This document shows positions 301 through 46,941 of a DNA stretch of 64,000 nucleotides, piece by piece. Each line of letters opens with the position of its first letter. Position 1 is the first letter of the stretch. Under the pieces are notes generated by a model that worked only from the letters and a program-made list of their open reading frames with translations, made no database searches and was not told the origin of the DNA. The translations under genes and the position numbers were made by a program. Location of the stretch: the NCBI GenBank assembly GCA_963965975.1, contig OZ014413.1:684501-748500 (forward strand), written 5' to 3'. Source of the stretch: Xestospongia bergquistia (lineage: Eukaryota > Porifera > Demospongiae > Haplosclerida > Petrosiidae).

Positions 301-327
301 ATCTTTAGACACTTCTGCAATCTCTAG

Positions 328-3300
328 TCTACGATAATAATCGTCAAGAACCTGATCCAATCAACAGAACCTTAACGGTAATAAATACTCTAATTTAATT
401 AATAATCTTAATTATTTGTTTTATCTATTAATTTATTAGGTTCAAGTTAATGATGGCAGTTTCCCCAGTAATGTTCTTGCTGTTACCATAGTAACAGAGC
501 CTGTCAATGATGAACCTCCAGTTGTTAATTCTGATGGAGTTGAGTTCATCTTTATTGAAGAGGATGGTCCTATCAATATTGTAGGACCAGCTGCAAACAT
601 TACAGATATGGACAACCTACCTGAACATAATCGTGTTAACTATGTCTGTGCTCAAATAAATCAACCCAAACCTGGTGATGGACTAATGGCTCCTTTAATT
701 AATTCTTCAATTGTTACCGTGGAGATGAACAACTCAAAACTTTGTATTGATTTCAGTTCTTGCGATAATGATTTCACTGACGACAGTTGTTTTAATAGCT
801 TATTACTTGGTATTGAGTTTAACAATACACTAGATGAACCAGATCTTACTGATCGTATCATATCACTTATTGTAAGTTTAACAAAACATTAATAAATAAT
901 TTATTGTTATTAGTTTTTACTTTATTATCAAACCCTTAGTTAATTATATTAATTAATGTCTTGAGAATGAATTATTTCATTTGTATTTTCATAATAGGCT
1001 TATGACAGTAATTATAATCTCAGCTGGACAACTACTGTCACTGTGAAATTTAAAGCTATTAATGACAAGCAACATATCTTGTATCTTAATGGAACAGCCA
1101 TGACTACATATTCAAATGTTACATTCATTGAAGAAGGTCCAGCTGTTCTTTTAACACAAGATTTGTTAATCTCTGATGATGATACTGGATTGAAACAATT
1201 CAATGAAGCTACCATTACAATTCAAAAAGGTAGATTGCTATACAAACACCTTTTAATTCACCTGTCCATTTATTGACCTCTCTGTTTGTTCATCCACTGT
1301 CTTGTTCCTCCATGTAGCTCATGATGAAGACTATCTTGAAATCAATTGGTCTCTGGTGGATATTAATAACTTAACAAATAAAACTAACGCTAACCAAACA
1401 CAGATCACTATCTTAGGCAATGCTACTCAATACACATATGCATCTATATTACAAACAGCTAAATTTGGTAACACAGCTGACGAGCCTACCCCTCCATATA
1501 CACCTGTGAATCGAGACATCTTGTTTGAAGTTAAAGATAGCAACTTCTTTGCCACAGCTACAGCAACTGTTACTCTCGAACCTGTCAACGACCCACCAAC
1601 TATTCAAGTTGGTAATGTCACTTTTAACGAAACAACACGTGAGCCAATCTTCTTGTTTGCTTCATCTACTTTGATTGATGATACTGACCACAAACAACTG
1701 ATTTGGATAACAATAGAAATATATCCTCACATTGATTCCTTAGATAACCTGACTATACCTGATATTACAGGTGTCAATATATCACGTGAATACATTTGGG
1801 CTCCAACAAGTGTCTGTTTTCCAGCTGCTAATGAGTTTACTGTTCAACGTATTAACATTTCTGGACCAGCAAACAAAAGTGTCTTTCAAGATGCTCTTTA
1901 TAATATTACTTATAATAATGACTGTCCTGGTCTTGTTCTGACTCAACGATCAATTCGTATTGATTTATTTGATGGTGATGATATTGATATAGTGTGGACA
2001 TTTATTGATATAGAAGCATTTAATGATACACCAGTGTGTTTCTTTGGACCCTGGCCCGTAAGTAATTTTGTATTAATGTATTTGTACTCTTAAATAGAAC
2101 TTAGAACTTGATTTATGGTATTTATTATATGATTTCATCTTAGGGCTACAAGTCAAGGACAGCAACGTATACAGAAGATGACACACCTGTTTCTATAGCA
2201 ACAAACTTGACATTGGCAGATTTAGATGGGTCACCTGACTACACAGACATTGTAAATGTCACTATTACAGAGTTGGCAGATGAAGACCAAGAGATAATAT
2301 ATTTTGATAATACAACAACTAGCATTACTGTTGTACAGACTGTGTTTCCTACATCTGATAATGGTTTTACTGCAGTCTATGAATTGAGGAATGGGAGTAC
2401 ATATGCTGAATATAATCAGGTATGTATTAATAATGTATTGTAATTATATGATACATATATATAGTATATATAGTTGTAGTACACTATATGGTAGATATAT
2501 AGTGTATATAGTTGTAGTACACTATATGGTAGATATATAGTGTATATAGTTGTAGTACACTATATGGTAGATATATAGTGTATATAGTTGTAGTACACTA
2601 TATGGTAGATATATAGTATATATAGTTGTAGTACACTATATGATAGATATATAGTATATATAGTTGTAGTACACTATATGATAGATATATAGTATATATA
2701 GTTGTAGTACACTATATGATAGATATATAGTATATATAGTTGTAGTACACTATATGATAGATATATAGTATATATAGTTGTAGTACACTATATGGTAGAT
2801 ATATAGTATATATAGTTGTAGTACACTATATGGTAGATATATAGTATATATAGTTGTAGTACACTATATGGTAGATATATAGTATATATAGTTGTAGTAC
2901 ACTATATGGTAGATATATAGTGTATATAGTTGTAGTACACTATATGGTAGATATATAGTGTATATAGTTGTAGTACACTATATGATAGATATATAGTATA
3001 TATAGTTGTAGTACACTATATGATAGATATATAGTATATATAGTTGTAGTACACTATATGGTAGATATATAGTATATATAGTTGTAGTACACTATATGGT
3101 AGATATATAGTATATATAGTTGTAGTACACTATATGGTAGATATATAGTATATATAGTTGTAGTACACTATATGGTAGATATATAGTGTATATAGTTGTA
3201 GTACACTATATGGTAGATATATAGTGTATATAGTTGTAGTACACTATATGGTAGATATATAGTATATATAGTTGTAGTACACTATATGGTAGATATATAG

Positions 3301-6300
3301 TGTATATAGTTGTAGTACATCTCAATATGATATTTATTTTAAGTCCAGGTAATGTACACTATGTTCTTGTGTTTAATTTGTATCTTTTTATTTTGTCATT
3401 ATAAGTGAATATTGAAAACAACAAATAAAATGAGTCTGCTCCCATTGGTACTTTCCATCCAATGATTTTAATTTTTTAGAACGGGCATTTGTCATTGACA
3501 TGGCCAATTGAAACTTAAATATATAGATTAAAACACTTCCTTAGAAAGACATACAGTCCTTAAAAAAACATAGAAAGTATAACATCCAGCAACATTATTG
3601 TATAAAGTGATCCAAGGCCAATTTTCTACCAAGTTTAATCTTGTTCTTCTTTTTACAGATACTGAAATCCATGACATACTTGGACAAAAATCCTGAACCT
3701 CGTGATCAGTTACCACGTCCATTAACAATAGCAATTAACAACCCTGATTTTTCTGCATGCTCTATTCAAATTACTGTTGTCAATACACCTGATCCTCCTG
3801 TCATTGGTCTACCAGCTGAATTTAATAGAGAATACATAGAGGATGAAGGTGTTATCCTTGTGACCAATACCACTATCATCATTTCAGATGAAGATAACTT
3901 CCTCCTATATCAAGCTCGTATCTTTATCCCTAACACTCCAAATCAATATGGCTTCTCAGATTTCCTCTATCTCCCTTCTGACTTTCTTGATAGCTTTGAC
4001 ATTACAGGTAATGGTACTAACTTTATCACTGCTACCGGTAAATCTCTTTTATTGGAACATCCCATTTTTATCGAATTACTTACAAATATAAGTTTTGCTA
4101 CTGATGATCAAGCAACTGATATTACTCGTAATCTTACATTTACTGTTGAAGAGAATCCATTAGGAGACACTGGTCCTAGTATTGCTACTGTTGTTCCTAT
4201 TTATATTAAACAACTCAATGATAAACCAGTTTTAACTGGTTCTCATTTTGTTGTTAATACAACGCTTGATGATTATCTTCCAGCTGATAGTAAGAACCCT
4301 GGGTTTTTGCCATCTTACTTACTTAATTCTAGTAACGTCAATGACCCCGACTCCATATATCCTCCTAATCCAGATTTTATAGGGTTAGCTATTTACCAAG
4401 CAAACAATGGATCACTTGGCAGCTGGCAATATTGGTGGAATGGCACATGGTCTAATATCACTGACATCAGTTCTTGTAGTCCACTCTTCATCACTGATAG
4501 TCAGAGAGTACGATTTTTACCTGATCCTAATATAGACAAGATTAATGGTCATGTATCTTTTGACTATCGAGTCTGGGATGGTACATCAAAGTATGTATGT
4601 GTTGGTGATGTAATAAGATCAGATCAAGAAGCTTCTATTAGTAATGATACTGCTAGTTTCTCTTATTTTGTGAAATATCTTAATCGTGCTCCAGTTATTG
4701 TCATTGACCATTTTTATCTTTCTAGTATTCAGGAAGATCAACCCACTAATGGCGAACGTGTTTCTGAGTTAGCCAATGAAATTGCCGAAGATTACGACGA
4801 TCTTGAGATTAGCTTTGTAGTAGTTGCAGCAGATACCAGATATGGAGAATGGCAATACAGAGATACTGCTTCATCTCCATGGCAACCATTCCCTTCAAAT
4901 TTATCATCTCATAATGCACTTCACTTAGTCCCAGATAGTTGGGTACGTTTTGTACCGAGTACTAACTTTGTTGGTACAAGTTCTATTACCGTACATGCTT
5001 GGGATTTAACGAACCCTATTTATAGTATCAGTTACGTTGACAGTCTTTCAGTACCACTAAGACACTCTGGACCTTATTCCTTGATGTCTGCCGATTTTAT
5101 TCAACATGTACAACATGTCAATGACCCTCCAGTATTGATGTTATCACATACCAGTATTGTCTTTAGAGAAAATGGTCCTCAAATAAGATTGTTTAACTCA
5201 CTAAATATCACAGACTCTGATAATACTGAATTACAATCAGCTACTGTAACATTAGAATGTCCGAGTTGTCCTGGTAACATCCAGTTACAATCTATCCCTG
5301 GATCTGGTTCGTTAACTCCTGGCTCAAGTGATCAGATCATTTCTCAACATGGTAGTGGCTTTAATGTCAATAGATCTGATACTGGCTCTCAAATACGTCT
5401 AGATATAACACCAATCAATGACGCTAGCCTCTTAGCATTTCAAACCTATCTTCAATCGCTATATTTCACTAACATAATGGAGGAACCAATATTAGCTGAT
5501 CGTATAGTAACTCTCTTTGTCTCTGATGGCTACAATATTAGCAGTAATGTCATTGTAACTGTATCTATTCAACAAGATAACGATAATCCTCCAGTTATAA
5601 CACTTCCTTATCCTAGTTTTGACTATATTGAGGGTAGTGGAATGGTGGACTTATTTCCAATTGAAGCAGCTGTTATAACAGATTTAGATGAGTCTCTTGA
5701 TCTCTATAATCTTACAGTGTCTATATTAGGAGCTAATAATACCGAGAGTCTTCATACAACATACTCTGGTTTCGGTCTTAATGTTACATCATCTGATCAT
5801 TTTATATTATTTAGTGGTCCAGCAAGTTTAGCAATGTTCAATTATGCTCTTAATTCATTACAGTATTCTAACACAGAGGATGAACCTGGTCAAATTGATC
5901 GACTCATTGCTTTTGTTATTGATGATGGTCTTTACATTAGTACTGTAATGTTAACTGTCTCAGTACAACCCATTAATGACAAATTACCTATAATATCACT
6001 GAACACTACCACTTTGATCTACTATGAAGTTAATCCTATATCACCATCAATCCATATTGCTCCAGATATTATTGTTACTGATAATGATATACCTAATACA
6101 CCAGTCAAAATGGCAAGAATTCATATTATTAATGCACAAGATCCACCTAATGAAGAGCGTCTCTTCTTAATGAGTGTGGTACCAGGGGTAGAAGCTACTT
6201 CCCTAGACTATGAGAGAACTCTTATTATAAGAAGTGCCAGTGGAAATATGGAGTTAACAATTTGGCAAGTAGAACAGGCACTACGACAAGTTGTTTACCA

Positions 6301-9300
6301 AAACACAGCAGAAGAACCTAACCCAATGTCTCGTAATATCTCTATTGTTATTGGTGACAACTTGTATGAGTACAACTTGACCTATACTGATCCTGTCTAT
6401 ATAAATATTGAATATGTTTTAGCTAATGATGATCCTAAAGTGCTATTGAATCGTGAGGTTGTATATTATACTGAGGATCAAGTACCAAGTCACATTATGT
6501 TAGCTCCTAATGCTACAATTATTGATGTTGACAATACATACTTAGCTGGTCTTTATATAGAACTGAATACAACTGAAAATATAGATCATTCATATGAACT
6601 ACTATTGTTAAATGTTTCCTTAATACCTCCAAGTATTATTGTCTACACTTCTATTAATACTTCTGTAGGATTTGTGCTAACTGGAGTTGCCCCTGTTGAG
6701 ACCTATGAAACCATTCTTCGATCTTTAACCTACAATAACATAGACCCTTCTGGAAATCCTGAGATTGGAACAAGAAAACTTATCGTTACACCTGTAGGTA
6801 TAGACACTGGTATTGGAGTATCTGATGAATTGAACATTGACTTCAGTGCTGTGAACAATCCACCTATACTTGATCTCAATGGCATGGCATTATCTGGACG
6901 TAACCACATTGTATCTTTTAGAGAAGAGAGTAGAACACCTGTGAAAGTTCTTGCTGATGACTTTGAACTACTCGATGTTGACAGCACAACTTTAACTAGT
7001 ATTAATATAACAATGTCTCCATACCTTGATATAGGATATGAGACACTTACCATAACTTCTCCTAATGACATATCATTGTATCAACCTAATCCTTACTGGA
7101 TCTCATTACAAGCTAATCCTCCTGCTATCATTGACAGTTTTAGACAAGCTCTCTCTACATTAAACTATACAAACACTGCCGATGAACCTCAGGGTAACGA
7201 AAGACAAGTTGAATTTGTTGTTAGTGATGGAGAAGCATGGAGCTCTCCTGTTACAACTACAATCTTGTTTGTCCATGTTAATGACCAACCATCCCTCAAT
7301 CTTTCGGGATCTATGAAAAATTATACTACTGAATATGTTGAGAATACCACAGCTGTATCTATTGCACCCTCACCATCTCTCAGAGATGATGATAATGAAA
7401 ACTTTACTGGACTACTCATTGAAGTTATTCCTCCATATTTCACTGGTGATGTAATATCAATAGTTGGAATTAATCTAACATACATTTCTGGTATGTATTC
7501 TGCTTCATTTCCTCCAATTTTTCGACCAGATTTAGAGGATATCATTGGTACTTTAGCTTTTTCTAACAATGAAGAAGAACCACCAGTTGGTACTAGAATA
7601 TTCTGTGTGTATGTATCTGATGGTCAGTTATGGAGTGATCCTGCTTGTACAACTGTTCAGTTAATTCCTATCAATGATAACCCTCCGGTATTTTCACCAG
7701 ATCATTACAGTACCTCTGTCATTGAAGAAAGACCTAATCTTGTTGTACCTCATCTTAATCTAGCTGTTACAGATAAAGACTCTTTGAATTCAAATGTTAC
7801 TTTTAATTGGGCTATTGTTGCTGGAGATGACTGCCATCAGAGTAGCTCTGGAATGAAGACACCACCTTTCTTCTCTGGAGATGGTTCTACCTCAAATTAT
7901 ATTATGATACAAACTCCATGTCGTTTTTCTATTGATGATAATGGAGTCATTTCTACAACAGCTACTCCTCCTGATAGAGAGATGAAATCTTTTTATAATC
8001 TTACTGTATCTGTTAGTGATGGTGAGCACACAACTTACGCTCAAGTAGACATTATCATTGAAGATGAAAATGATAATCCACTTTGCTTTGATCCAAGAGA
8101 GTACAATATTAGTATATCAATTGGAGAACAAGCTGGTACTGTTCTTCGTCAACTTACTACAACAGACCCAGATACTGCTGATGGTCTCTTCATATTGTAC
8201 ACTCTTACATCTCAACAAATGCTCAATCTACCAATAATGATTGGGCGTACTACTGGTATACTGACACTAACAGTTAGTGAAAGTGATCCAAGTTTTCCAA
8301 GTGATGTTCCATTGTTTGTTATGACAGCTGATGTATCAGATGATAGACATACTGCTTCAGAAAATAATTGTGAAGCTACTATTTATGTAACTGTTCCTTT
8401 CAATGCTGAAGCTCCTCAGTTTGTTCAAGAAACATACTCCTTCTCTGTGTTAGAAAATACTCAATCAGAAACAAGTGTCTTCACCATTACAGCAACTGAT
8501 AGTGACGAAGGCACAAATGGTGACATCTCTTATTCCATCAATGCAAATGGTGCTCCATTTGTTATTAATAGCAATACTGGTATTATCACTCTAACATCTT
8601 CGTTAGATTTTGAAACTACTGAGAAATACATGTTTGCTGTTGAGGCTCGTGACCATGGTAAACTTCCTCGTTCATCAACAGTTAATGTAACAGCACTCAT
8701 TGGAAATGTCAACGAGTTCTCACCAATGTTTACCAAATTTGATTATAGTGAGTCCATATGTGAAAATGTACCAAATGGAACAAACATAGTACAGGTCACA
8801 GCAAATGATGGTGACAATGGTTTGTTTGGTGAAATAACTTATACTATATTTCAAACAGCTGGTTGTGTAGATTGTTTTAATATTAATCCTTCTACTGGTA
8901 TGATCTATACTATTGGTAGTATTGACTATGAGACACATCAGACGTCAATCCTCTTTGTAAATGCTCAAGATGGTGGAGGAAACATAGCCTTTCCTTTTGC
9001 AGATGTAACAATAAAGGTACTCAATGACAATGAACACGCACCTACTTTTGAAAGCACTTTTATTTCCATGGAAATACCTGAGAACTTCCCCGTCAATGCT
9101 ATGCTGCCTAAACAAGTCACAGCTACTGATGATGACACCACTTGTTCTGTAGATCAATGTAATGGTACTATTCCAATTGATACAACTTCTTGTCCAGATG
9201 TGAGTTCTCTAACTTATACCATTCAATCTGGGAATAGTGAAGGTCTTTTTAGAATCATTCCATCAACTGGTGTCCTGTTGCTTAATTCAACTCTTGACCA

Positions 9301-12300
9301 TGAGGCACTCACTCAAATAACCTTCTCACTTGAAATAGCTGTAACAGATGGTCAATACACATCACTAGCAACTGTACATATTACTGTCCTTAATATCAGT
9401 GAATTTAGTCCTGTCTTTGATAATAGTACCTACCAAACATCTATTGATGAGAATACCAGTATTGGTACTGTTATAATAACAGTCCATGCTACTGATGCTG
9501 ATAATACTCCCTTTACTTATGCATTATCTGGTGACAATGTCAATTACTTTAATATTGATCCAATCACTGGAGTAATCAGTATAGCACAACTTCTTGACCG
9601 TGAAGTGATTTCCTCCTTCTCATTAATTGCTACTGCCTCTGAAGCAGCATTAAAGAACATGACTGGTATGGCTACTGTTATAATTAATGTTAATGATCTC
9701 AACGATAACAAACCAATGTTTGTACAAGGGCAATACAATTTTAATGTACCAGAGAATCAAGCTGTGGGAACTATTATTGGAACCGTCTTGGCAACAGATG
9801 CTGATGCAGGAATTAATGCTGAGTTCCTATATTTCATATCATCCATACTGCCTGCTAATAGTACAGGATCGTTTGTTATTAATTCATCTTCAGGTCAAAT
9901 AACAGCTCTTAAAACTTTTGATAGAGAATTAAGAGATCAATATATGTTGACTGTTGTAGCTATTGACAGTGGTAACTTAAACAGCAGTGTCATGGTTCAT
10001 GTTGCTATAACTGACGTTAATGATAATACTCCAAGGTTCTCAATGGATGTCTTTACAGCTCAAATACCTGAGAATACTTTAGTAGGATCTCTTGTAGTAA
10101 CGTTAGTAGCCTATGATAACGATGTCGGCAGTAACGCTCAACTTAGTTATAGTATTGTCAGTGGTAATGATGGTCATTTCAAGTTAGATCCATCCAGTGG
10201 ACAGTTAAGGGTTAATAATACTTTAGACTATGAACAGCGGACATCATATAACCTTACCATCATTGTTACTGATAATGGAGACATACCACTTAGCTCTTCA
10301 ACTATTGTCTATATCACTCTTGAAGATGTTAATGACAATGCTCCTGAATTTACTAATTCTTTCTCTGCCTCTATTCCAGAGCACAGTAGTAATAACACTT
10401 TAGTACTCAACTTAACAGCCACCGATAATGATGAAGGGTCTAATGCAGTCATAAATTTCATCATCACTGGACCCCTTAATACCCCATTTACTTTAGATCA
10501 TGAAAGTGGACAAATTCGAGTATTGAATTCAGCTGAAATTGACAGGGAAGTACAACAAAAACACTATATAAATGTGGTTGCTTTTAACCCCCTTGATATA
10601 AGCGGTCCTAACACTACTGCCACGGTGACTGTTACTCTTACAGATATCAATGATAACTCTCCTCTTTTTGACGTTGACGTCATAATCTTCTCAGTTGATG
10701 AAGATGATACACCTGTCTCTAATGTTTTAATCCCTGGCAGTATCTTTGGTTCTGGTAATCAACGATATATAGCTACTGTTAATGCTACTGACAAGGATGC
10801 ACAGAATACTTTAAACTCTGAAATAACTTATACCATCACTGGTGGATCAGGTGAATCCACTTTTATAATAAATGGTAATTCTGGAGCTATTTATTCCATT
10901 TCTCCTCTTGACTATGAACAGATCACTACATATACTTTACACATCACAGCTAGTGATAATGGAGTACCTGTATTGTCGTCAAATGTGACAGTTATCATCA
11001 ATGTTCTTGATATTAATGATAACAAACCAGTGTTTGATCAAAGTATTTACACTATATCTATTTCTGAGGCCTTACAAGTTGGTGAAGAAGTTATTCAAGT
11101 AACAGCTAGTGATGCTGATAGCAATAGTAATGCTGACATAACATATACTATATTAAACACTGGACTACCATTTATTATTAATAGTTATACAGGTGATATC
11201 ATATTGAACCAAACACTTGACAGAGAGACAAAAGACTTGTACATATTTGAAGTTGTTGCCACTGATCATGGAACAATACCTCTCAGTTCTACAACACAGA
11301 TCAATGTAACAGTACAAGATGCTAATGATAACTCTCCAATTATAACTCCATTGACACTGGTATCTCCAATACCAGAGAATACTAACATAGGATTTGTAGT
11401 AGCTACATTTAAAATAACTGACGAAGATATTGGCTCCAATGCAGACACAACTTTAACATTGTCAGGTGATTCTGATCACTTTGCTGTCAATCAAAATGGA
11501 GTTGTTACAGTAAATGGTATTCTTGATTATGATCTTGGAGTATCTTCTTTTAATATCACCTTAACAGCTCGTAATACTGAGTCACCACACTTACATAGTA
11601 GTTATACTTTTATTATTGAAATTACCAACCTTAACGATAATGCACCCATTGTTGTTTTTGGAACAAATAATGTCCAATTCTCAGAAGGTAGTGATTTTGC
11701 TGTTGAATTAAATGTCGGTATTACAATTGAAGACCTCGATGGACGTAACTTTACTCAGATTTATGATGCTAAGGTTGAGTTTGTCAACCCAAATCCTCTC
11801 GAACCTAGTTACCCGTTCACACCTACATCAGCTGATAATCCATCAGAGTGTACTCTAGAAGACAAGGTAGCTAAAATGACTGCCTGTGGTCTTGCAAGTT
11901 CAGGCACACTGTCCGTTTTACCACCAGATAACAAACTAACGATATTTCCTAACTCAGATATCTTAACACAATCTGATACTACTCTATTGCTCAACGCTGG
12001 TCTTCAAAATTATGCCTATCTCAGCGCTCAACTTGGTTCCACTACCTTATCTATTCTTTCATGGATATGGTACGTACCAACAAATGGAGCTGCTACCATC
12101 TTCTCCTATGTAGCTAATGATCATACAATCTACAGTGCTGCCTGCCATGATCAAGTTGATTTACAATTCACTTATTATGCTAACAATTCAGAACAAACTG
12201 TTGTATTTGACGGAGTTTGTAATGCTTTAACTAATCAATGGCACCATCTTTCTTTGGTAATTCATTCGTTAACAGGTACTCCACAACTAACTATTTATAT

Positions 12301-18300: not shown

Positions 18301-21300
18301 AATAGTTGTCGGAGATGCTAATGATAATGTACCACAATTTAATCAGACAAGATATAATGCTACCATTGGAGAAGGAGTTCCTCAAGGAACCTTTGTACTC
18401 CAAGTGTTTGCTACTGATGCTGATAGTGGTATACATGCCCAGCTGGTATTTGAACTTATAGGTACAAATGATTTCTCTATCTCTTCTGATGGTATCATCA
18501 AAACAGCAGCTGCTATTGATAGAGAGAACATAATGACATATTCCTTTAATGTCACTGTACGCAATCCAGGCTCATTAGCACATGACACAGCACAGATTTA
18601 TATTGAAGTACTTGATCTAGATGATAACACACCAGTTATAACTTTATCTCCACTAACTACAATTCTTCAAGAACCACAAACACAAGTTAACTTAGTTGAA
18701 ACACTTACTATATCTGATCCAGACCCTCTACCAAGTATAGATGTAGCAACAGTAACAATAATTGGTGCCCAGACCCCTGGCAGCCTTGTCCTACCATATA
18801 CTATAGCTGGTATTAGTCTCATTGGAAATGGTACCAAGACCCTACGATTATCAGGACTGAGTACTTTGCAATCTTATGAGACCCTATTGCAGTCAGTAGT
18901 ATATATGGATACATCTGTAGAACCTCTTGTGGTTAATAGAACTGTAACCTTCCAAGTGTCCAGTGGTGACTCAGTCTCAAATGTAGCTACTATTGTTGTC
19001 ACCGTGGCAACCATTAATGATAACCCACCAGTAATCCTCTTAACAACATCTACTGCTGATGGTTCTTATTACACTGAGTTTACTGAAGATGGATCACCTG
19101 TTCAACTTACCAACAACTCTTTAACAATAACAGATGCAGACTCAGGTTATAATCAAATTCATTACTCTGTTGTTGAATTGACAGCTGCACCAGATGGAAA
19201 TCAAGAAGAAATAACTGTTGTAATTTCAAGAGACCTGACACTTGACATTGCCTCTGATAAACACAGGTTAATTATAAGGGGTCCTGGAAGCCTGGAAGAT
19301 TTTCGCATAGTTCTCAGAACCATAAGGTAAATATTACCATGCAAACAAGGTTGACACTTACACTCATATACTTTTTTAAATAGTGGCTATTCATTTGGCA
19401 CAGGAAGTGCATACTTCAATGAGAAATTAATACTACACCTTAGACCCTAAATCCTAAACATCAGAACCTATATATCTGTATTAATTTCACATTGAAGTAT
19501 GTACTTGCTGTGCTGTATGAATAGTCACTGGATTTTTTAATGCTATGTATAATATATTACTGACAATATATTACAATATATACTATTGCTAATACTAAAT
19601 ACTATTATATTAGATGACTTACATATTGAGCTCTTTGTTATCTTGTTCTTTGTTCCTCAGATATAGCAGCACAGCTCAAGAACCAATAGGTAGTCAACGA
19701 CAAGTCACTTTCGTTGTTAATGATGGACACTTCAACTCGACTCCGGCAACAGCTCACATTAATATCGTAGCAGTCAATGACCCACCATTAATGACACTAG
19801 GACAAAATGGTAGTATTGATACAACTGTAGTATACAACGAGGGACAAACAGAACCTCTCCTATTAGCACCACTCCTAGTAATACATGGTGAGTAAGAAAT
19901 AATTATTAAAATAATTTAAATATATATAATTTTAAATTATAAGTATAGTTGTGTATAATGATAGTGCATATGTTTACATATAAATACTAATGTGTCTTTC
20001 CTTACTTCCTAGATGTTGATTCTGATAAGTTGACTTCTGCTGTTGTTCTTCTTTCTTCACCAACTAATGAAGAAACATTAAATATATCAATGATTTCTAA
20101 TGAACTAACAATTACAGTCTTACCTCATAGTATAATGTTATCATCACCATCTGGAGTATCATTAACTATATATGAGGCAGTATTACGAACTGTGACATAC
20201 TCAAATAACAGAGAAATGTAAGTATTAATAGTTTAATGTTTTACGAGTCATATTGTACCACAAATTTCAAGTAGTGAGTCATACACATATTACTATTGTT
20301 ACTATTATAAATGGAGGATAAATAAAAGCATTATTGTTTAGTGGATCATTACCACTTTAATATTATTATCTTATTTCCTTACAGACCTTTCTCTATGCCT
20401 CGTGAGGTATCATTTACTGTTACCGATGATCTAGGTGGTGTGAGCTCACCAGCTGTTGCTAGAGTTACATTTAATGCTATTGATGACACACCAATACTTG
20501 ATCTTAATGGTTTACAACAATTTAGTGTTAATATCTCTATACAATATACTGAAGGAGACAATGCTATCAAAGTAAGCCAATCATGACTAGATATACATAC
20601 CTTTCATATTTATAAAACTACAATGTACATGTAGTTTTTATAAATATGACATCCATGTCTATCTGTATATAACTACTTATTACACTATATCCTATATCAT
20701 TCACGTACATATATATCTACATATAGTTACTCAATACAGTATGTACTATATCATCCTTTGCTCTGTTCAATATTTCAGGTAGCACCTCAAGCTGTCATTC
20801 AAGATATTGATTCCACTCTTGCTAGTAATTTATCTGTTACCATAGCAAGTAAATATCCAGGTGACGTGTACTATCTACCATCTATCAATGGTATTACTCT
20901 AACTCAAGTACAAGGAAGTAATCAATATGTCTACTCCGGACAACAATCACTTAGTCTCTATGAACAACTTATTAGAAATATTACTTTTGTCAATACCAAC
21001 GAGGAGATAGAGGTATTACAGCCAAGGAAATTATATTTCCAAGTTTTCACACCAGTCAGTGGAAATGGAGCAACAGCTGGCAGTAACATTGCCATGGCTA
21101 CCATTACCATAGTTACTATCAATGACCAACCACCTATATTTAGTCAGAACATCTATTATGGCTCTGTTGATGAAAATCTACCAGCTGGATCTCCTGTTGG
21201 TGTCACGGTAACAGCCACAGATCCTGATATCCCTAGCAATGCTAACATCACTTATGCTATAAGTGGAGAGAGCGAAGAGTTCAAAGTTCATCCAACTACT

Positions 21301-24300
21301 GGTGTAGTAACTACACGTAAACCATTAGATGCCGAAACCCTTCCCAGTTACTTAACATTTTCTGTTGTTGCCGAGGATAGTGATGGAGTTACTGTACAAA
21401 GTTCTACAGCTGTAGTTAACATCAGTATCAATGATCTTAATGATAACCTGCCAGTATTCTCACAAGAATCCTATACAAGAGACCTTCCAGAAAACACAAC
21501 AGTCAACAGCATTGTTCTACAAGTCTCAGCCACAGATAATGATCGTTCTAGTATCAATTCAGTCATTACTTATTCTATTAGCAGTCACACTAATCTTCTA
21601 ACACCTGATGGTCAAGGATCTGGACATGTAGGATCGGGTTATCAAGAACTTCCATTTGTCATTGATTCAAAAACAGGAATTATCAAACTATCACAGATTG
21701 TGGACTATGAGGATATTAAACAATATATATTTAATGTCTTAGCTACAGACTCTGGTTCTTTTCCCACACAAAGCAGTGTTGCGGTGACTGTCAACATACA
21801 AGATATTAATGACAATGTTCCTGTTTTTGTCAATACACCTTACATAGCGGCTGTATCTGAGACAGCTTCCATAGGTACGTCCATATTGACAGTACAGGCA
21901 GTGGATGCTGACTATGGTTCTAATTCAGAAATTACTTATTCCCTCGTTGGTACAGATCTGTTTACCATTAACACTACCTCTGGTCAAATATCAGTTTTGG
22001 CTCCACTTGATCATGAAGCAACACGATATAATGTCTTCACAGTAATAGCTCATGATGGTGGACATATTTCATTGTCTTCAGAAGCAACTGTCAACATCTC
22101 TTTTGTCAATGAAAATGACAACCCACCAATCTTCAGTCATTCAATTTATTCTTTCTCCTTCCCAGAAAACACCCAATTTGAATTCTCAGTATATGCTAGT
22201 GATCTAGATAATAACATATTAAGTTATTCCATTATCAATGCTTGTAGTGATAATACCTTCACCATTGACACCCTTAATGGACGTATCTTTACAACCAAAG
22301 AACTTGATCGTGAAACCACACCTATATGTAATCTCACAGTTGAAGTTACTGATGGTCAATTCAGTGATGTCACTATTGTATCTATTGCAGTTAAAGATGA
22401 AAATGATAACACACCCACATTCACTCAAGACTTGTATGAAGCAACCATATCTGAAATCTCACCTCCTGGAACATTCGTTCATCAAGTAATAGCCAATGAT
22501 TTGGATGCTGGTGCTAATGGTACTGTGACTTATGAGATAGTGGGAGGGAATTTAGGCGGAGCTTTTGCTATATCCCCATCACAAGGTGTGGTGAACGTCA
22601 CCTTATCACTCGACTATGACACAGTTAATAAGTTCAACTTAACAATTGTTGCCAAAGATGGAGGACAACCATCGCTAACTTCATCCACTCATCTTGTTAT
22701 CACTCTAACAGATCATAATGATGTATCACCAGCTCTATTCCTAGCTCAAAATCAAATTATGTACACTGAACAATCAGGTATTGTCACCATTGCTAGTAAT
22801 ATACAAGTGATTGATCCAGACACTAGTCCTCTACAACAAGCTACCATTATTTTCTCTGTCAACGGTTGTCAAGGCAATTTTGATAACATTCCTAAGACAT
22901 GTCCAAACGACCTTGTCTGTTATTGGTTATGTGGTGAAGCATTAATACTCAATCAAACATTACTAAGTTCTATACAAGTGTCACATTATATTGGTGAGCA
23001 TGAAATACACGTCAACTTAACTGGAGAAGCTTTGACAACCAAATATCAATCAATTCTTTCAAGTTTAGCTTATACTAATATAGCTGATGAGCCTTCTACT
23101 GATTTTAGAGTTATTGAAATAGCTGTTAATGATGGAGTACATTATAGTAACGTACTAGCTATTAACATCACTATTATATTCGTTGATGATCATTGTCCAA
23201 TCATTACAGCATTTTATACTAACAACTTGAATTACACTGAAGAAATGACCGCACTCAATTTAGGTCAAAATATGGGTCTGGTATTATCAGACCCCGATCG
23301 TCCACCTCATCAGACCCTGTCAGGTATGACAATAACTATGAATGAACTTAGAGACGGAGAATTCGAGAACTTGACCATGAATGCCACTGATTTGCCTTTA
23401 TCTGTGTCTACTTCATCTCATATGGACTCCATTATAATTACCATTCTTGGTGATACACCAATACAGACATACAACACTCTTCTTCATACCCTATCTTATA
23501 GTAATTCTTTACCAGAACCCACACCAGGGGTTCGATCAATCACTATTGTACCAATTAAAGGCACACTTGTTTGTGCTGTTCTCACAGCAACCATCAATGT
23601 CAAATTAATTAACGATAATCCACCTATTATCAATTTAATCAATACATCCATCATTTTATATGAGGAAGAGAATGGACTATTAGCATTTGCTGAAATTGCC
23701 GGTCTTCAAATAACTGACGAAGATCAAGACTTTCCTTTACAATCTGCTACCATTATGCTTGAAGGAGTCCAAGATAACAATTATGAATCCTTAATATTTA
23801 ACTCTCTTTCACTACTAAATGGAGTATCAATTAGTAACAATACTACTACAAGTATTACCTTCACTGGAAGTGGTTCTATAGCGGCCTACCAATCTATTAT
23901 ACGTTCAATATATTATATAAATACAGCTGCTGAACCTACACCTGGTAATCGTGAAATCTCTGTGACTATATATGATGGAGAACATGATGCTGTTAAAGTT
24001 ATAATCATTATTGTAGTCCTTGCTAATGATAATCCTCTACAGCTTACACCAACTATTGTCCGTTTTACCTACTACGAGGGTAACACCTCTATTCCTATTG
24101 GAGGACTAACCCTTTATGATCCTGACCAAGATGCTTTTGTTTCTAACTTAACTATTTCATTATCAAGTCTTGAAACTAATATAGAGACAATATCTGTTAT
24201 GGCATTTGGTAATATTATATCTGATGCATCCTCTATCACAATATCTCAATCTGCACCTGTCTCTACATATCAGGTATGTATTAACATATAACATATGTAC

Positions 24301-27300
24301 ATATGACATATAACATGTATAATTATAAAACAATACATGTATATGTATTAACATATAACATATGTACATATGACATATAACATGTATAATTATAAAACAA
24401 TACATGTATATGTATTAACATATAACATATGTACATATGACATATAACATGTATAATTATAAAACAATACATATATATGTATTAACAATTAACATATGTA
24501 CATATGACATATAACATGTATAATTATAAAACAATACATATATATGTATTAACAATTAACATATGTACATATGACATATAACATGTATAATTATAAAACA
24601 ATACATGTTATATGTATTAACATATAACATGTGTAGTTATACAAGGTCTGTGTCCATGGTTCAACTTACTTATAGTAATCATGTACTATTAATAAAGGCT
24701 CATACCATGTATTATATATGTATAGTACATTGTATATTATATATGTATAGTACATTGTATATTATATATTGTCAAGTGGACATTAATAATCTTATTTAAT
24801 ATACTCACCCATTTCCTATCATTTCCTTATCATTTTCTTATCATTTTTCCTCTTCAGACTATTTTGAATTCTCTAACATATTCTTATGTTACACCCAATG
24901 GAGTTGAGCCCAAACCAGGAGAGAGAATGCTGAGGATAACAGTATCTGATGGAAACTTTCCAGCTGTGACAGCTGATCTTATAATTGAAGTTGTCATCTT
25001 CAATGATAATGCTCCTCAGATCAGTTTTGGTGGGAAAAGTGCAGTGACTTATAACGAGACAGTATTAGGAGGTGTGGCTTTAGTAGTGGGTTCTGTCATG
25101 CAGCCAGTTATCTCCGATGCTGATAACAATGATGTCTTCTTACTACAAGGAGGTGTAGTCAGGTTGATTGGAGCAGTGGATGGATCAAACGAGAGACTGA
25201 ACATTATTGGTGCTCTACCAGCTGGAATTTATGCCACAGGTATGAAAACAAGTCCTTAAAATATTGTTTCATTTAACTTTATTTCATTTCATTGTATAGT
25301 TACTAATCATAACATCACTTTTACTGGTTCTGCTTCAGTATTGGCATACCAATTAGCTCTATCTACCATAACATACCAAAACAATGCTTCAGAACCCTTA
25401 TTATCAAATCGACAACTAACATTCCAAGTGTTTGACGGTATTTTCTATAGTAATACTCTTAATGGAGTCATATCAATTGGTTTAATTGATGATAATGATC
25501 TCATTCTGGTATGTGGAAGTGAGTCTCATGTGTTCGTTGAAGGATCCAATACATGGTTACCTGTAACACCCTATTTGACTCTAACTGATCTTGATATTGA
25601 TCACATTGTGATTGGAGCTGATATATCAGTGTTAAATGATCACACTGGTGATATGATCTTGTTAAATAATACCATAGCTAATGAATTAAATGTAATAAGT
25701 ATTAATGATACTGTACTACAAGTTACAGGAGCAGGGACCACTACTAGCTATCAAGTAAGCACAGTATTTGTGATGATTATATTTTTGTATTTCATTAATT
25801 TCTTTTTATAATTATACATTTGTATTTTCTTTTTTTTTACTCTCATTATTTTTACTCATAGCATCTTCTCAGAACACTAATGTTCACAAACTCGGCTGAA
25901 GAACCTTCATCTGAGACACGTCAAATTGTTCTTACCGTTTACCAACCTTCAACTAATACAAGTTGTTTAGTACTTGTTACTATACAACTCGTGAATGATA
26001 ACAGACCAGTTCTGGATCTTAATGGTCCTAACAAATCTGGCATTAATTATACTACAACTGTGTCATATTATTTATATAGCAATAACCTGTTTGGTAATGT
26101 TGTCCGCATTGCTCCTTATGATATCACTATAACTGATGATGATGCTGACAGTCGTATTATTAGTATTGAATTGACTCTTAGCCCTGGTATGGAAGGAGAT
26201 AGAATTTTTATGGTATGCCAGCCTCTTTATGAAAATAGAGAAGCTGGTTCATGTTACCTCAGGTAAGAACATATGTGACATTATTAAGGATGAAGATAGA
26301 CAGACTAAACTGTCCAACATACATATAGACAGACAGATGGACAGACAGACAGACAGACAAATAAATGTACTTAGAGATAGAAGTGAGCAGAGAGACATAT
26401 TATCTTTAATAAAATATATAATATTAACATGTATCTGATGTTTTTTTTAGTTTTCCAAACAATGCCTACATTTCATGCACCTGTGGTGATCCTGTTCCAG
26501 CTGATCTTAACATCACTTATACTAGAACATCACTCACTCTTATACAAACTGGAGCATTCTCTAATTATATTATGCATTTAATATTAACAAAGTATATATA
26601 CTTTCAACATTCTGTTACAAGACCATCAAATTCTTATACAGCTGTTGTTACAGCAAGAGTTGGTGATGGTCAGTGGATAAGTGACCCAGCTACTACTACT
26701 GTGACAGTTGAATTTACTAACTTGTCTCCAATTGTTTACATCAAAGGACAAGTAAGAATATAATAATAAATGTATGAATTAATGAATGTATGAATGAATG
26801 AATGTATGAATTAATGAATGTATGAATGAATGAATGTAAGAATGAATGAATGTATGAATTAATGAATGAATGAATGTATGAATTAATGAATGTGTGAATT
26901 AATGAATTAATGAATGTATGAATTAATGAATGTATGAATTAATGAATGTATGAATTAATGAATTAACGAATGTATGAATTAATGAATTAATGAATGAGTG
27001 GATTGGTTCATGGTATAAGTACAGTAAATGTATGGAGAATGTATAGTCAGGTATCATTAAATTGAGTACTTCTTTTCTTTTTATCTAGTCTACATCTGCT
27101 GATGTTGACATTGTAGATGGTCAGATAACATTAAATGTTATACCAGAATTATCATTATTTGATGATACTAATATTTTAGCTCAAGTTATTATAGAACTAA
27201 CTAATCCAATACATTTAGACAATGAGAATATCAGTGTTACAATGATAGAAAATGGGAATATTACTATGGTAAGTAATACTATTATAATACATAATAATAT

Positions 27301-29719
27301 TACATTAGCTAATGTATTATATAATCTACAGTTCAATGCTAATATACTATATAATGTACTGGTAACTAGTAATTACATGATAATATGCAGCACTGTAGCT
27401 ATGATTTGTATGTTACCATTCAATACTGTAGTTAAGATGGTACATTATAATTTTTAATATTATAATTTTTTATCAACTATCTGTATTTTATATTGTATAG
27501 AACAATACGAGTACACCAACTTACATTATACTTGATGGACCTGCCTCTCTCATGGAATTTACCTCTGTCTTACGAAGTCTTCAGTATACTAACTCTCGCA
27601 TGTCAAGTTTACTCATACAACAACCTAATACTGAAAATAGGTAAGTACATTTTACAAACCTATTACATCTTGTGAAAGTTACATGTGAAAATGAATAGTT
27701 AATGAATTGAATAGAGAGATATAAGTTTAATAAATGGACAGTATTATTGAGCAGAAATGGACAGATAGATAGATAAATGGATGAAAAATGGACAGACACA
27801 AAATCCAGATAGATAGATAGATAACAAAAAGATTAATGAACAAAATTAATGGATATACAGTTAGATCAACAGACAACTAGAGAGCTATAGCAGCTGTATT
27901 CTGTATTTAAAACAATAGTTACATATGTACAAGATACAGCTGTTAAAATATATCATCTCTACTCATTTCTAGGCACATTACACTCACTGCCACTGACACT
28001 GAAGGAGGTACCAGTTTACAATCAAATGTAACAATAATATTTGACCGTACCTGTACTGTCTGGCCATATGGTGACACTATTACCATCCCCACGGATATAC
28101 CTGCAAATAACCTTCTCATCTGTACATCATTACCTTCTCTCAATGTCAGAGTAGCTGAAGGTAGTAGCGATCTATCTTCACTTGCTAGCATACAGGTCAG
28201 TTAGTCCACCATATTGCCTTCTCTGTGAACTCACTAGCTTAAATGGCTGACCCTTAAGTGCTTATTAACATGTTTTACAAGTTGGGTGGTCCCCCACTCA
28301 GGTCAACCTCACAGGGCTGTTTATGATTTATCTATATAAATTTTACTCAATATCTTGAGCCTTATGTAATGTGAGATTAGTGGAAGTAATAGCAGGAGTT
28401 AAGATAATAGTTAGAATGAGATAAGAGCTACCTTCTCTATGTAATGACATAGTTCATTCTATATTGTGTATTAAATACACAATATTGTTATACATTCTCT
28501 CTATAAAGAGATATAGTTTATATTATATTAGACAGTGATTTAGAAAGGGAGTTAGGAATATAACATGTAATAATGAAGTCTTACTCCATCTTCAAAGTCT
28601 TAAGTTGCTTAAAGCAATACTCTAATCTTTAAATATTATAATATATAATCTTAGGAACTGATGTAGGAGTGTCTTGTTGATAGTATTAATTAGAGGACAA
28701 TAATGTATTATAGACTAATATTGTGATTGGACTATAGTATATTAATTAATAAACTATATTTATTTTAATGTAGTCATTGGATACGCTCAGTATCAAGGGA
28801 ATACCTGCTATTCAATCGTTACAAGGTTTAGAAAACCTTGCTAACTTTACTGAACTAGTCATTGAGAACATGGCAAACTTAGTGACATTGGAACATCTTG
28901 GTGCTAACTTACCAGCAAATTATCAAACTACAGTTCAAAACATTGGTATCCATAACAACCCCAAACTGACTAACGTTGACGGCTTGAGGATTGTTAGCAA
29001 TGTTACATGTAAGTATATTATTATTATTAAGAGTACTTTTAGTATGAAGGTGTCCTACATTATTAATATGGGACTAAAAGAAGTGTCCCAAATATAATGA
29101 TGTCCTCATTTAACTGACAAATTAAATAATACAGTAAACTATTAATATTGGACTAAAAGAAATGTCCTCAGTACTTAGTTTTGACCTTTAAATTTAAATC
29201 TTTTTCTTTTCTTCTCATATATATAGCTGTGATATCATTACAAGATTGTGAATCATTGACTGATTTAAGTGGTCTTAATAACATCATATCAGCAAAGTCT
29301 ATTATTATATCTCATCTACCAATGAACGAAATTAACTCTTTTAATAATCTCTTTAATGTCTCTGATCTATGGATATATAGAAATTATGTAAGTGACAACT
29401 TAAGACTGTTATCTATCTAACATCCAACCATCCATTTATCTAACTATTGATCTCTACATCCATACAGTACATCCATCATTTCACTTATCTATCCATTAAA
29501 ATTTCATAATTTATTTATTGCAGCTGCTTACTTCTATTACTGGATTTCAAGGTCTACGTATTGCAGATAACATCAATATTATACAAAATCTTAATCTAGT
29601 TAGTCTAGATGGTTTAACTGGATTACAAAGAGTTGGTATAGCACGTATGTTCTTTAATGGAGCACTCTGCTATATCGGTACAAGTATACCAGATGCATCA
29701 TATTGGCAGGTCAGTTCAG

Positions 29720-29750
<31 letters not shown>

Positions 29751-30376
29751 GTTAAGTTAACATGGTATTCTTGTATCTTTGTTGGTATTAGCTATAGTCT
29801 ACATTATGTTAAATATATGGTATCCTTTTAATATGCTAATACACTAATGCTTTATCAAAGTAATGTAATGTTTGTAATTATGATCTTTTAATATAGTAGA
29901 TTGTTAATATTTTCTAGAATTTAATATTTGCTTCATCCATTTCTTAGGGACTTGGAGCAGTTACAATGGGAGACTTTGTGTCTAGTGATTGTCCATCTCG
30001 TACTTGTTCAGATCAGCCATGTCTTAACAATGCTCTCTGTGTCAATACTACCGAACTAGCTGTCGATACAAACTACATGTGTTCGTGTTCAGATAACTAT
30101 TTTGGAACCAGCTGTCAATATTACAACGTATGTACAACCAATCCATGTCAGAATAATGGTGTCTGTACTCCTAATATTAACGTTGTTACTATTAACCAAT
30201 ACTTCTGTAACTGTCCTGCTGAGACAACTGGTATGAACTGTGAAACACTCCTCAATCCTTGTCTCTCCGATCCATGTCAAAATGGTGGTACTTGTGAATC
30301 AACCAATGACGTAGCTGTGTGTCACTGTCCCTCAGGATTTACTGGTGACCGATGTCAAACACAGTTACCATCTTAA
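328..30376 (+). CDS. Giant secreted or matrix cadherin, 5' end outside the window
   Basis: Calcium-dependent adhesion-type extracellular protein. Exons chained in frame: 328-377, 440-871, 998-1229, 1318-2057, 2144-2419, 3659-19326, 19661-19887, 20013-20217, 20385-20571, 20779-24273, 24858-25239, 25300-25754, 25862-26262, 26451-26751, 27089-27268, 27501-27640, 27973-28195, 28774-29008, 29227-29387, 29524-29709, 29948-30376. The sum is 24,605 nt, about 8,200 residues, ending in TAA. The first exon opens in the middle of a module (YDNNRQEPDP), so the start lies upstream. Canonical EC repeats show PEN, DRE/DYE and DxNDN motifs; I count about 26. They alternate with about 32 modules of the form LNG...EEG...DxD...YxNxxxEP...DG...NDxPP. 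One LamG-like domain, receptor-L-like repeats and three EGF domains follow. No hydrophobic anchor precedes the stop, so the product is probably secreted, or needs an unseen alternative exon. The cadherin call is sure; orthology to a named family is not. Confidence 0.93.
440..7680 (+). other. Cadherin-like module block 1 (non-canonical)
   Basis: About 13 consecutive modules of roughly 110-150 residues. Each begins after an NDxPP linker, has an acidic Glu-rich strand (for example FIEEGPAVLL), a D-x-D turn, a YxNxxxEP motif and a final DG before the next linker. They lack the DRE motif and A/B-strand pattern of EC repeats. They recur between the later EC blocks and are extremely Asn-glycosylation-rich (many NxT/S). 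Two modules at about 4,340-5,100 are of a different sub-type and are treated separately as a finding. Confidence 0.75.
2420..3658. repeat. Cadherin intron with a 38-bp tandem array (about 23 copies)
   Basis: From about 2455 to 3320 a 38-bp unit centred on TAGTTGTAGTACACTATATG is repeated head to tail about 23 times. Variants are mostly GTATA/GTGTA and ATGGT/ATGAT. The rest of the intron (3321-3658) is unique, AT-rich sequence ending in a pyrimidine tract and CAG at 3658. Confidence 0.95.
7686..11645 (+). other. EC cadherin repeat block 1 (about 12 repeats)
   Basis: Regular repeats of roughly 105-115 residues. Each starts with a PxF linker and an EN motif (VPEN, IPEN), has DxD, a central LDRE or LDYE, and ends in DxNDN. 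The best conserved are the sixth to eleventh. The set of calcium ligands (E, DRE/DYE, DxNDN) looks intact in most; a few early linkers are degenerate (FNAEAPQF, GNVNEFSP, NISEFSP). Confidence 0.88.
11860..12720 (+). other. LamG/concanavalin-like domain nested in a cadherin-like module
   Basis: The stretch has the LamG pattern: WHHLSLV, LTIYIDG, RIYLGARP and YFTGRLHRMVVSP, with paired cysteines. It is preceded by the first half of a non-canonical cadherin-like module (FSEGS...IEDLDG) and followed by what looks like the second half of that module (a Y-x-x-FL segment, TEPRS, TVTDG, then SNDGPPV). It lies wholly inside the 15.7-kb exon. Confidence 0.7.
14440..16660 (+). other. EC cadherin repeat block 2 (about 7 repeats)
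   Basis: Seven canonical EC repeats with EN, DxD, LDRE/LDYE and DxNDN motifs, flanked on both sides by non-canonical modules (about four upstream from 12735, about three downstream to 18000). One repeat (about 16,075-16,160) carries a Ser/Gly-rich loop insertion. Confidence 0.85.
18000..18640 (+). other. EC cadherin repeat block 3 (2 repeats)
   Basis: Two canonical EC repeats (starts near PQFLYVVNLPEN and QFNQTRYNATIGE; the second has a clear IDRE) isolated between runs of non-canonical modules. They show that the two module types are interleaved and not confined to separate halves of the protein. Confidence 0.8.
21125..22725 (+). other. EC cadherin repeat block 4 (5 repeats)
   Basis: Five canonical EC repeats in the 3.5-kb exon 20779-24273, with DEN/PEN starts, LDAE/LDHE/LDRE cores and DxNDN ends. 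The fourth is short (about 90 residues). Non-canonical modules follow up to about 28,195. Confidence 0.85.
24274..24857. repeat. Cadherin intron with a 67-bp tandem array at the splice donor
   Basis: The donor of exon 20779-24273 is the first unit of an array with a 67-bp period (starts at about 24278, 24345, 24412 and 24479). About five copies of GTATTAACATATAACATATG-type units run to about 24,660. The remainder (24,660-24,857) is unique AT-rich intron with short TATA repeats. Confidence 0.9.
26752..27088. repeat. Cadherin intron with AATG/AATT-type short tandem repeat
   Basis: About 26,763-27,000 is an imperfect 4/8/12-bp repeat built from GAATGTATGAATTAAT. Nothing else is recognisable in this intron. 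Confidence 0.9.
28196..28773. other. Unique AT-rich intron
   Basis: Intron between cadherin exons 27973-28195 and 28774-29008. No repeat, ORF or RNA gene was seen. The neighbouring introns 27641-27972 and 29710-29947 hold only GATA-type and (TA)n micro-repeats (29,719-29,746). Confidence 0.7.
28774..29709 (+). other. Receptor-L/LRR-like segment of the giant cadherin
   Basis: Three exons (28774-29008, 29227-29387, 29524-29709) encode about 190 residues of irregular leucine-rich turns such as LQGLENLANF, LTNVDGLRIV, LTDLSGLNN and LVSLDGLTGL. This is the pattern of the receptor L-domain seen in insulin/EGF receptors and related surface proteins. The family label is a pattern call. It sits just before the EGF repeats, so the protein ends in a receptor-like ectodomain arrangement. 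Confidence 0.65.
29985..30373 (+). other. Three EGF-like domains and C-terminus
   Basis: Last exon of the giant cadherin. Three six-cysteine EGF domains begin at CSDQPCLNN, CTTNPCQNN and CLSDPCQNGG; the last ends CPSGFTGDRCQ. Only five residues follow before TAA. There is no transmembrane helix, GPI-type hydrophobic tail or cytoplasmic domain. Confidence 0.92.
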
Positions 30377-30703
30377 GGCATCTTTTTGACCCAGACCTTC
30401 TCGTTTTAAAGGACTTTGTTTTTTATGGACCCTCTATTACATATAGAATACTAGGCTCTAAGACAAAGTTATTTTTATAAGATTAACATACAAATTAAAA
30501 TGTTCCTTGTTTCTTTATAATTATATTAACAACCACACATCACTTATATAACATTATATATGACATATTTAGCAAGTTTCTTTATGACTCTATAACAGTG
30601 ATGTCATTTTTTAGTTTTATTTAATGAAGAATTTTTTTTAGAACATATTCCTATCAATTTAACGTAACTATATTGTCACATGACTAATTTAAGTTTATAC
30701 ACT
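30377..30703. other. Convergent 3' intergenic region
   Basis: Lies between the stop codons of the cadherin (+) and the OCIA-domain gene (-), 327 bp. AT-rich, presumably overlapping or abutting 3' UTRs. No gene seen. Confidence 0.7.
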
Positions 30704-32398: not shown

Positions 32399-32622
32399 TT
32401 TAGTTTGTAGACACTAGACAGCCACACCCACATAAACTACTACATGTAGGTGTTAAAGAAATAACAAAATTTGCTTTAAGTAAATTAATTTTTTAAAAAG
32501 AATTTATTACGATTTTATAACGATTTCAACATCAAATTTAGGGACTAATAAAATTACGTTCTTTATAAAGAGAAAAAGAATTGTTTTGTTATTGAACTGG
32601 CTAAGTATCAGCTCAATGATGT

Positions 32623-33832
<1,210 letters not shown>

Positions 33833-34251
33833 CAGGTCTTTTAAAGTCTAAATTTGGCTCTGCTTTCTTTCCAAAAAATTTTTTTCCTCTATTAATTTCT
33901 TCCTTTTAAACTTGCAGTTCGCTGGATGCGTAATATGGTGTACTGCTCCCGGTATTTATACATAAAGTATAGCAAAATGTATACACGCAAGCAATTGATG
34001 ACGATTCAGGTCCCAAAATACGCTGACTGCGCGATTTGTACTATTATTAGTAACATTATGACGTGTCGTCAAGTCAGCATTTTCGTAAGACATCTAATAG
34101 TCCAGCATTGCAATTTTATTTCTTACAGTCAGCATTCCGTATTTGATCTAAAATAGCGTAAACATTTTTAACCCTATATGGACTTTCAGCAGTGGGTGGG
34201 GTTGACTAGTAAATTCCTAGTTCAGTGACCGTTTAATTTAACTGTTTCCAA
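33833..34251. promoter_or_regulatory. Divergent promoter region, p62-like / SH3 gene
   Basis: 419 bp between the two start codons, reading outward in both directions. It contains an AT-rich stretch with TATTTATACATA near 33,953 and less AT-rich flanks. No ORF homologous to a known protein. Promoter role is inferred from position only. Confidence 0.5.
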
Positions 34252-41287
<7,036 letters not shown>

Positions 41288-46544: not shown

Positions 46545-46941
46545 CTTTCTACGTGGTTAAAGTTAATTTCCTGGTAAGGTCATAAGGTCTCACTGAAGGC
46601 AGTCCAACAGTCAAGCAGTTATATTATTATTATTATTACTATTATTATTAATATCCGTACCAAAATGATTTGTTGAGGTGAAGCAATAATTAAAATATCT
46701 ATAACATAAATCAATATTGGTTTATGTTTCTATTTTCTACTATAAAGTGGATAGTTTTATTGTTTTCAGTTTCATTACATAATATTTAACTGAATCAATT
46801 AATTATACAAATATTTAAAATTGTCCTTCAATATTATAACTAGTTTCCTATATATAACAACTTACAATACAAAAAAAGAAAAAAGAAAACAAGAAATACA
46901 CTAAAATATCAAAAAATATAATTTCATAATATAACTCAATG
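46545..46941. other. Intergenic region between Ig paralogues
   Basis: 397 bp holding the promoter side of copy A and 3' side of copy B. Contains a short (ATT)n run near 46,623-46,650 and A-rich sequence near 46,870. No gene seen. Confidence 0.6.

Follow-up and report, generated by a model that had tools for sequence, protein, structure and literature searches.

Introduction

Fat, Dachsous, Flamingo and the invertebrate classical cadherins are membrane proteins in which arrays of extracellular cadherin (EC) repeats occur together with EGF and LamG domains, and we know of no blocks of the second, non-canonical module described below in any of them. Sponges and choanoflagellates have lefftyrin, coherin and hedgling, cadherins with extra phosphatase, cohesin and hedgehog N-terminus domains, and the sponge aggregation factors are characterised by Calx-beta repeats and the Wreath domain. 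For calsyntenin, the domain list given in PMC9064300 comprises two cadherin domains, one LNS domain, a transmembrane region and a short cytoplasmic tail.

Here we analyse a giant cadherin gene of the demosponge Xestospongia bergquistia, located in a 64,000-nucleotide stretch of DNA (the window; C3:684501-748500 of the 146-Mb, 21-contig genome GCA_963965975.1), for which 30 kb of upstream sequence was also taken in. An earlier description made from the letters of the window (the original prediction) had seen in it alternating blocks of two module types in an architecture unlike any known cadherin. In the sequence comparisons reported here, the domain order, the conservation of this order and the collinearity of the centre with calsyntenin are evident, and the gene model makes it probable that the protein is secreted. 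On balance, we favour the reading that this conserved gene encodes a secreted, giant member of the cadherin superfamily, whose centre and the collinear ectodomain of calsyntenin descended from one cassette. If true, this would connect the synaptic calsyntenin family with a giant protein found in animals that have no neurons.

Results and Discussion

Domain order of the giant cadherin

EC repeats and second-type modules were located with hidden Markov models (HMMs) that were seeded with four EC repeats and five modules of this protein and iterated on it. As had been predicted, the EC repeats fall into blocks of 12, 7, 2 and 5, and they total 26. Four pieces scored 291.9, 297.2, 472.9 and 299.4 bits with PF00028 (cut-off 28.8), which places the protein in the cadherin superfamily; in a scan of four pieces no NCBIfam model exceeded its cut-off. 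The module HMM found 35 modules above 3 bits, 33 of them strong and long enough to serve as alignment rows; 32 lie wholly or partly inside the window, in agreement with the roughly 32 originally proposed. The two weak ones are the third module (10.9 bits) and the C-terminal half of a module (16.1 bits) that is interrupted by a LamG domain (Pfam Laminin_G_3, 44.4 bits, cut-off 27.6). Two further domains, denoted w, belong to a third cadherin-like kind: the second matches Big_9 (29.2 bits, cut-off 23.6), and the first reaches 23.2 bits with Cadherin_5, below the cut-off of 26.5. With m for second-type modules and E for EC repeats, the full order is m9 w2 m6 E12 [LamG in split module] m4 E7 m3 E2 m4 E5 m8, followed by a leucine-rich repeat (LRR)-like stretch and three EGF domains, and the total is about 63 cadherin-type domains (26 EC, 35 second-type modules and two w). 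In the scan of domain order among homologues, the third module fell below the threshold and the split module was counted within m5.

The inventory of two module types in blocks therefore stands, but the LamG in the split module and the two w domains had been overlooked. The C-terminal EGF domains were called correctly, the repeats named receptor-L-like were not: the spliced piece matches LRR_EndoS (35.9 bits, cut-off 27.9), no receptor-L family is among the Pfam matches listed, and a PDB sequence search with this stretch led to LRR proteins, the best being internalin B (E 1.1e-4). Among the Pfam matches of the exon pieces scanned, which cover part of the exons, no Calx-beta family is present.

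A calsyntenin-like cassette in the centre

The centre of the giant reads EC, half module, LamG, half module, module, so that the calsyntenin order of EC, LNS and a CLSTN_C-type region is found in it. In several proteins, ordinary modules are matched in their N-terminal halves by the piece before LamG and in their C-terminal halves by the piece after it (3.7 and -0.2 bits for the best reversed decoys). Calsyntenins for comparison were retrieved by a sequence search, and the 120 listed of 1,515 matches were used. In a profile-profile comparison with 12 calsyntenins, the split module and the module that follows aligned collinearly over 378 columns (probability 96.3, E 1.5e-9), and when the blocks were compared one by one, the scores rose for the EC (44.4), the LamG (84.9) and the following module (74.7). 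A full module scored 31.6 against the calsyntenin block after LNS, as expected if that block is a half module. A module HMM built from 500 modules sampled out of 937 gave both matches above 6.5 bits, the best of 240 decoys, in 119 of the 120 calsyntenins (medians 12.6 and 15.6 bits, best 19.9 and 23.9). Cysteine pairs flank LamG on both sides in 29 of 29 giant-type rows and in 120 of 120 calsyntenins; the patterns were composed after viewing the sequences, and between the groups the spacing differs for the first pair and is alike for the second. At the sequence level, these data suggest that the calsyntenin LNS also sits inside a split module.

Several observations weigh against this reading. 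The calsyntenin set is the said fraction of the matches and consists of vertebrate calsyntenin-1 where named. The block before LNS does not align significantly (score 10.8), and the block after LamG, though aligned end to end, is weak (score 16.4, probability 1.7, E 0.028) and scores as high (17.4) against the next module of calsyntenin, so that a half module is demonstrated and its position by itself is not. The LamG match of other sponge-type proteins was 14.5 bits versus 17.0 for calsyntenin, and with scores this close LamG alone is no proof of common descent. The AlphaFold2 (AF2) prediction of the split module has a mean pLDDT of 73.0, with values from 73.0 down to 46.4 over five models. 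Calsyntenin is absent from the best 50 rows of each fold search with it; the matches listed there include ECs or, for LamG, lectin-like folds. In a PDB profile search with the split cassette, the best stretch stayed, among the best 60 of 175 rows, within profile positions 1-136, which cover the EC and the first part of the half module.

An alternative explanation is that LamG entered the sponge giant and calsyntenin by separate insertions, so that the two would have the module type alone in common. LamG domains are frequent in cadherins, the LamG scores do not strongly single out calsyntenin, the flank before LNS lacks a significant alignment and the one behind it matches a half of any module, all of which suits two insertions. 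Opposed to this are the shared succession of EC, LamG, a half module directly after it and a full module, and the cysteine pairs on both sides in every sequence of both groups. We consider independent insertion possible but the less probable course of events, and lean towards descent of the giant's centre and the calsyntenin ectodomain from one cassette.

The two resemble each other in the order of EC, LNS/LamG and CLSTN_C, in the cysteine pairs and in the half module and module after LNS, while the giant differs in having 26 ECs, 8,779 amino acids and no anchor in its model. The architecture had been judged new; it is indeed unlike classical, Fat, Dachsous and Flamingo cadherins, but in the centre it follows the calsyntenin ectodomain collinearly. 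An ancestral cassette, with LamG/LNS in a split module of a type shared with bacteria, is our somewhat preferred origin for both. Calsyntenin would then be a short, membrane-tethered excerpt of a giant secreted adhesion rod of animals that lack nerves, or else the giant would have grown from an ancestor resembling calsyntenin. For the calsyntenin part around and after LNS, which lies beyond the domains in the list of PMC9064300, the cassette offers a likely domain solution. Neither a link between calsyntenin and sponges nor a statement that the calsyntenin LNS lies inside a split module appeared in titles or abstract openings among the matches listed from the open-licence PMC literature.

When the genome was searched for a stand-alone calsyntenin with the calsyntenin P0128, 21 places matched. 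Each of them lay inside query residues 50-318, a span that reaches slightly past the cadherin part, and LNS and CLSTN_C had no match, a single-sequence search being insensitive. A search with PF19699 found no match in the genome and none in the controls either. The split LamG piece found this gene only.

Nature of the second module

The signature LNG/EEG...YxNxxxEP...DG...NDxPP that had been proposed for the second module proved real: over the 35 modules, E is present in 30, DxD in 34/32, EP in 26/30, R in 31 and ND in 28/29. The corresponding motifs of the 26 ECs, judged from sequence, are E (24), DxD (26/26), DxE (25/22) and ND (23/22). None of the 19 modules scanned with Pfam reached the cut-off of PF00028 or of any other family, and the best score with CLSTN_C (PF19699) was 22.0 bits, under the curated cut-off of 27. 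Ordinary EC repeats are ruled out by this result, as the original prediction had held, but a likeness is kept at the level of fold. Two modules (the last two of the four that follow the split module) and the next EC were predicted by AF2 with a mean pLDDT of 90.8. For the second-type module the prediction is a cadherin fold to which one helix is added. A PDB profile search with the 19 modules gave three protocadherin-15 rows (E 0.29, 0.29 and 1.4).

The same kind of module occurs in the Pfam calsyntenin C-terminal family and in a calcium-binding protein of the cyanobacterium Microcoleus sp. FACHB-1515 (P0055, 2,929 aa; Pfam CLSTN_C 143.6 bits). Like the giant, this protein has modules in tandem (16 by the module HMM), so the module type is not private to one lineage; unlike the giant, it carries RTX repeats (HemolysinCabind) and no EC was found in it. 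A scan of contigs with a two-module piece of P0055 returned two loci, in Microcoleus FACHB-1515 and in a Leptolyngbyaceae metagenome-assembled genome (L031, L032); such a scan reaches close relatives only and is no measure of module spread. The giant combines animal ECs and a bacterial-type cadherin module in fixed blocks within one conserved protein.

Gene model, predicted secretion and possible role

Splicing was predicted from sequence alone with a home-made codon and splice-site model whose end was forced to the observed stop; a run with stricter splice scores lost several exons close to both gene ends. With the start set at the methionine of a signal-peptide-like sequence, the first two of the 37 exons predicted, both tiny, drop out and the protein has 8,779 aa. 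The gene begins about 4.2 kb upstream of the window, at about -4223 (C3:680277, in L005), and within the window one 15.7-kb exon and 20 further predicted exons form a single plus-strand gene that ends with a stop codon at 30374-30376, followed by ATTAAA at 30494 (Table 1). The true start of the gene and the N-terminus had been missed. Homologues support both ends: within the first 1,200 aa, Amphimedon P0004 covers residues 10-1199 at 42% identity, and P0011 is collinear through the last modules, the LRR-like stretch and two EGFs. The predicted introns hold long minisatellites at 2457-3319 (38 bp x 22.7) and 24275-24635 (67 bp x 5.4).

As originally stated, a membrane anchor is absent from the gene model, which ends after the third EGF with neither a hydrophobic or transmembrane segment nor a cytoplasmic tail. 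The transmembrane segment and catenin-binding tail of classical cadherins are therefore lacking in it, as is the single or seven-pass anchor that follows EC, EGF and LamG domains in Fat, Dachsous and Flamingo. P0011 ends right after the second EGF, possibly at an intron, and so gives no independent proof that an anchor is absent. Secretion is read from the gene model, and an exon encoding an anchor may instead lie downstream: 10 plus-strand open frames with hydrophobic stretches are listed at 30377-35400, the nearest at 31059-31194, in a stretch that also holds minus-strand exons.

The EC blocks may form rod segments stiffened by Ca2+. In the second modules the acidic E, DxD and ND positions are retained but EP..R takes the place of the DxE of ECs, from which their joints would probably bind less Ca2+ and bend more; the blocks are a natural test case for stiff versus flexible stretches of a rod. 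The central LamG and the terminal LRR and EGF domains may bind partners, and the whole could lie outside cells as a linking or matrix rod that measures a few hundred nanometres, about 280 nm at about 4.5 nm per domain. Secretion, length and domain types together suggest an extracellular adhesion or matrix rod, and the protein could serve as the matrix or aggregation protein that was first proposed.

A membrane-held component of the links or mesh between choanocyte microvilli, attached via a partner or as an unseen splice form, is an unlikely alternative. Ephydatia has candidate cadherins for the links of its choanocytes (PMC4942974), but a sequence link to this gene was found for none of the four candidates in that paper, and the gene model has no membrane anchor. 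The legend of its domain figure explains TM and LamG3; the panels also show vertebrate and cnidarian proteins, so that LamG3 need not belong to a sponge protein. It is most improbable that two neighbouring genes were wrongly joined or the model overran, the order being an annotation artefact of splicing predicted with a home-made model, as the single 15.7-kb open exon already carries modules, EC 12, LamG, EC 7 and EC 2, and P0011 (6,872 aa) spans modules, EC and module blocks, LRR and EGFs.

Table 1. Features of the giant cadherin gene, in window coordinates
Feature	Position	Strand	Basis and remarks
Exons with N-terminal modules inside the window	309-377, 440-871, 998-1229, 1318-2057, 2144-2419	+	Spliced model
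Giant exon (15,668 bp)	3659-19326	+	Modules, EC 12/7/2 and split LamG module; open frame, splice sites at both ends
Two w domains	4229-5125	+	Third cadherin-like kind, GxWQYW type
Six non-canonical modules	5162-7678	+	Module HMM
EC block 1, 12 repeats	7685-11638	+	EC HMM; PF00028
LamG-split module	11642-12742	+	Half module, cysteine pair, LamG (~11996-12505), CxxGCG pair, half module (12503-12742)
Four non-canonical modules	12797-14440	+	Module HMM; AF2
EC block 2, 7 repeats	14447-16660	+	EC HMM
Three non-canonical modules	16700-18001	+	Module HMM
EC block 3, 2 repeats	18008-18625	+	EC HMM
Four modules	18668-21126	+	Exons 3659-19326, 19667-19887, 20013-20217, 20385-20571, 20779-24273; module HMM on spliced model
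EC block 4, 5 repeats	21133-22722	+	EC HMM
Eight modules	22762-28039	+	Exons 20779-24273 to 27973-28195; module HMM; last ones collinear with P0011
LRR-like stretch	28774-29709	+	Exons 28774-29008, 29227-29387, 29524-29709; collinear in P0011
Last exon, three EGF domains and stop	29948-30376	+	Pfam EGF 66.3 bits, three stretches

Homologues and conservation

The central region retrieved 73 proteins, one of which (P0002) is the window's own exon; the organism is shown for four of them. The exact core E7-m3-E2 after a LamG is kept in 26 of the 73, P0028 and P0031 carry the domain order in part, and most orthologue-like proteins have one or two w domains in the corresponding position. The close relative whose organism is named is a 'Cadherin domain-containing protein' (UniRef name) of Amphimedon queenslandica (P0004, 7,231 aa), which shares the type of start, the modules, w domains, EC blocks and LamG, with 52% identity over the central query. 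It differs in having E7-m3-E5 instead of E7-m3-E2-m4-E5, and its record, perhaps an incomplete model, ends before the LRR/EGF part. A second search of proteins (A4) returned 11 at E 1e-10, all with EC or module matches and no calsyntenin among them.

Another group of homologues (P0041, P0045, P0050 and others) has the order E8 m5 E7 m5 E16 m5 E8. Giants with modules and w domains in which no EC was found form a further group (P0029, P0030, P0032, P0033, others, and P0058 of Oopsacas minuta), and their C-terminal part contains a strongly hydrophobic stretch. P0067 of the acorn worm Ptychodera flava stands in this group beside P0058, whose source is a glass sponge. Pfam PF28399 and PF28393 were also matched on homologues. 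The original prediction had called the protein lineage-specific. In favour of this, the order is kept in homologues and the close named relative is a sponge protein, but the module type also occurs in a cyanobacterium; lineage specificity of the giant is likely, and unproven because of the few rows with a visible organism.

Ten other cadherin regions of the genome were compared, some of which end at the edges of the sequence taken. Nine (C1, C4, C5, C9, C10, C14, C15, C3:10.74 Mb and C3:11.36 Mb) contain ECs and no module at 14 bits. On the minus strand of C12 (L017-L019, G000:C12:2244001-2274000) there is a second mixed cadherin with about 31 ECs and 19 modules in blocks, the order of which resembles that of homologues P0070-P0073. 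Further mixed EC/module genes may exist in the genome.

Neighbourhood of the gene

About 2.4 kb downstream of the stop codon, a minus-strand open frame with a ZZ zinc finger (42.4 bits) lies at 32727-33449. A 228-bp tandem repeat (36385-37540, 5.1 copies, 96% alike) falls within an open frame of 816 aa, and an SH3-coding exon (40633-41085) lies downstream of that frame. Judged by eye, two very similar adjacent Ig-type genes on the minus strand (44200-48745) are a tandem duplication. Also by eye, similar protein stretches with a common 'SPTxxQCE..M' flank the cadherin gene at 55338-55919 (minus strand) and L006:1-558, and are perhaps members of one local family.

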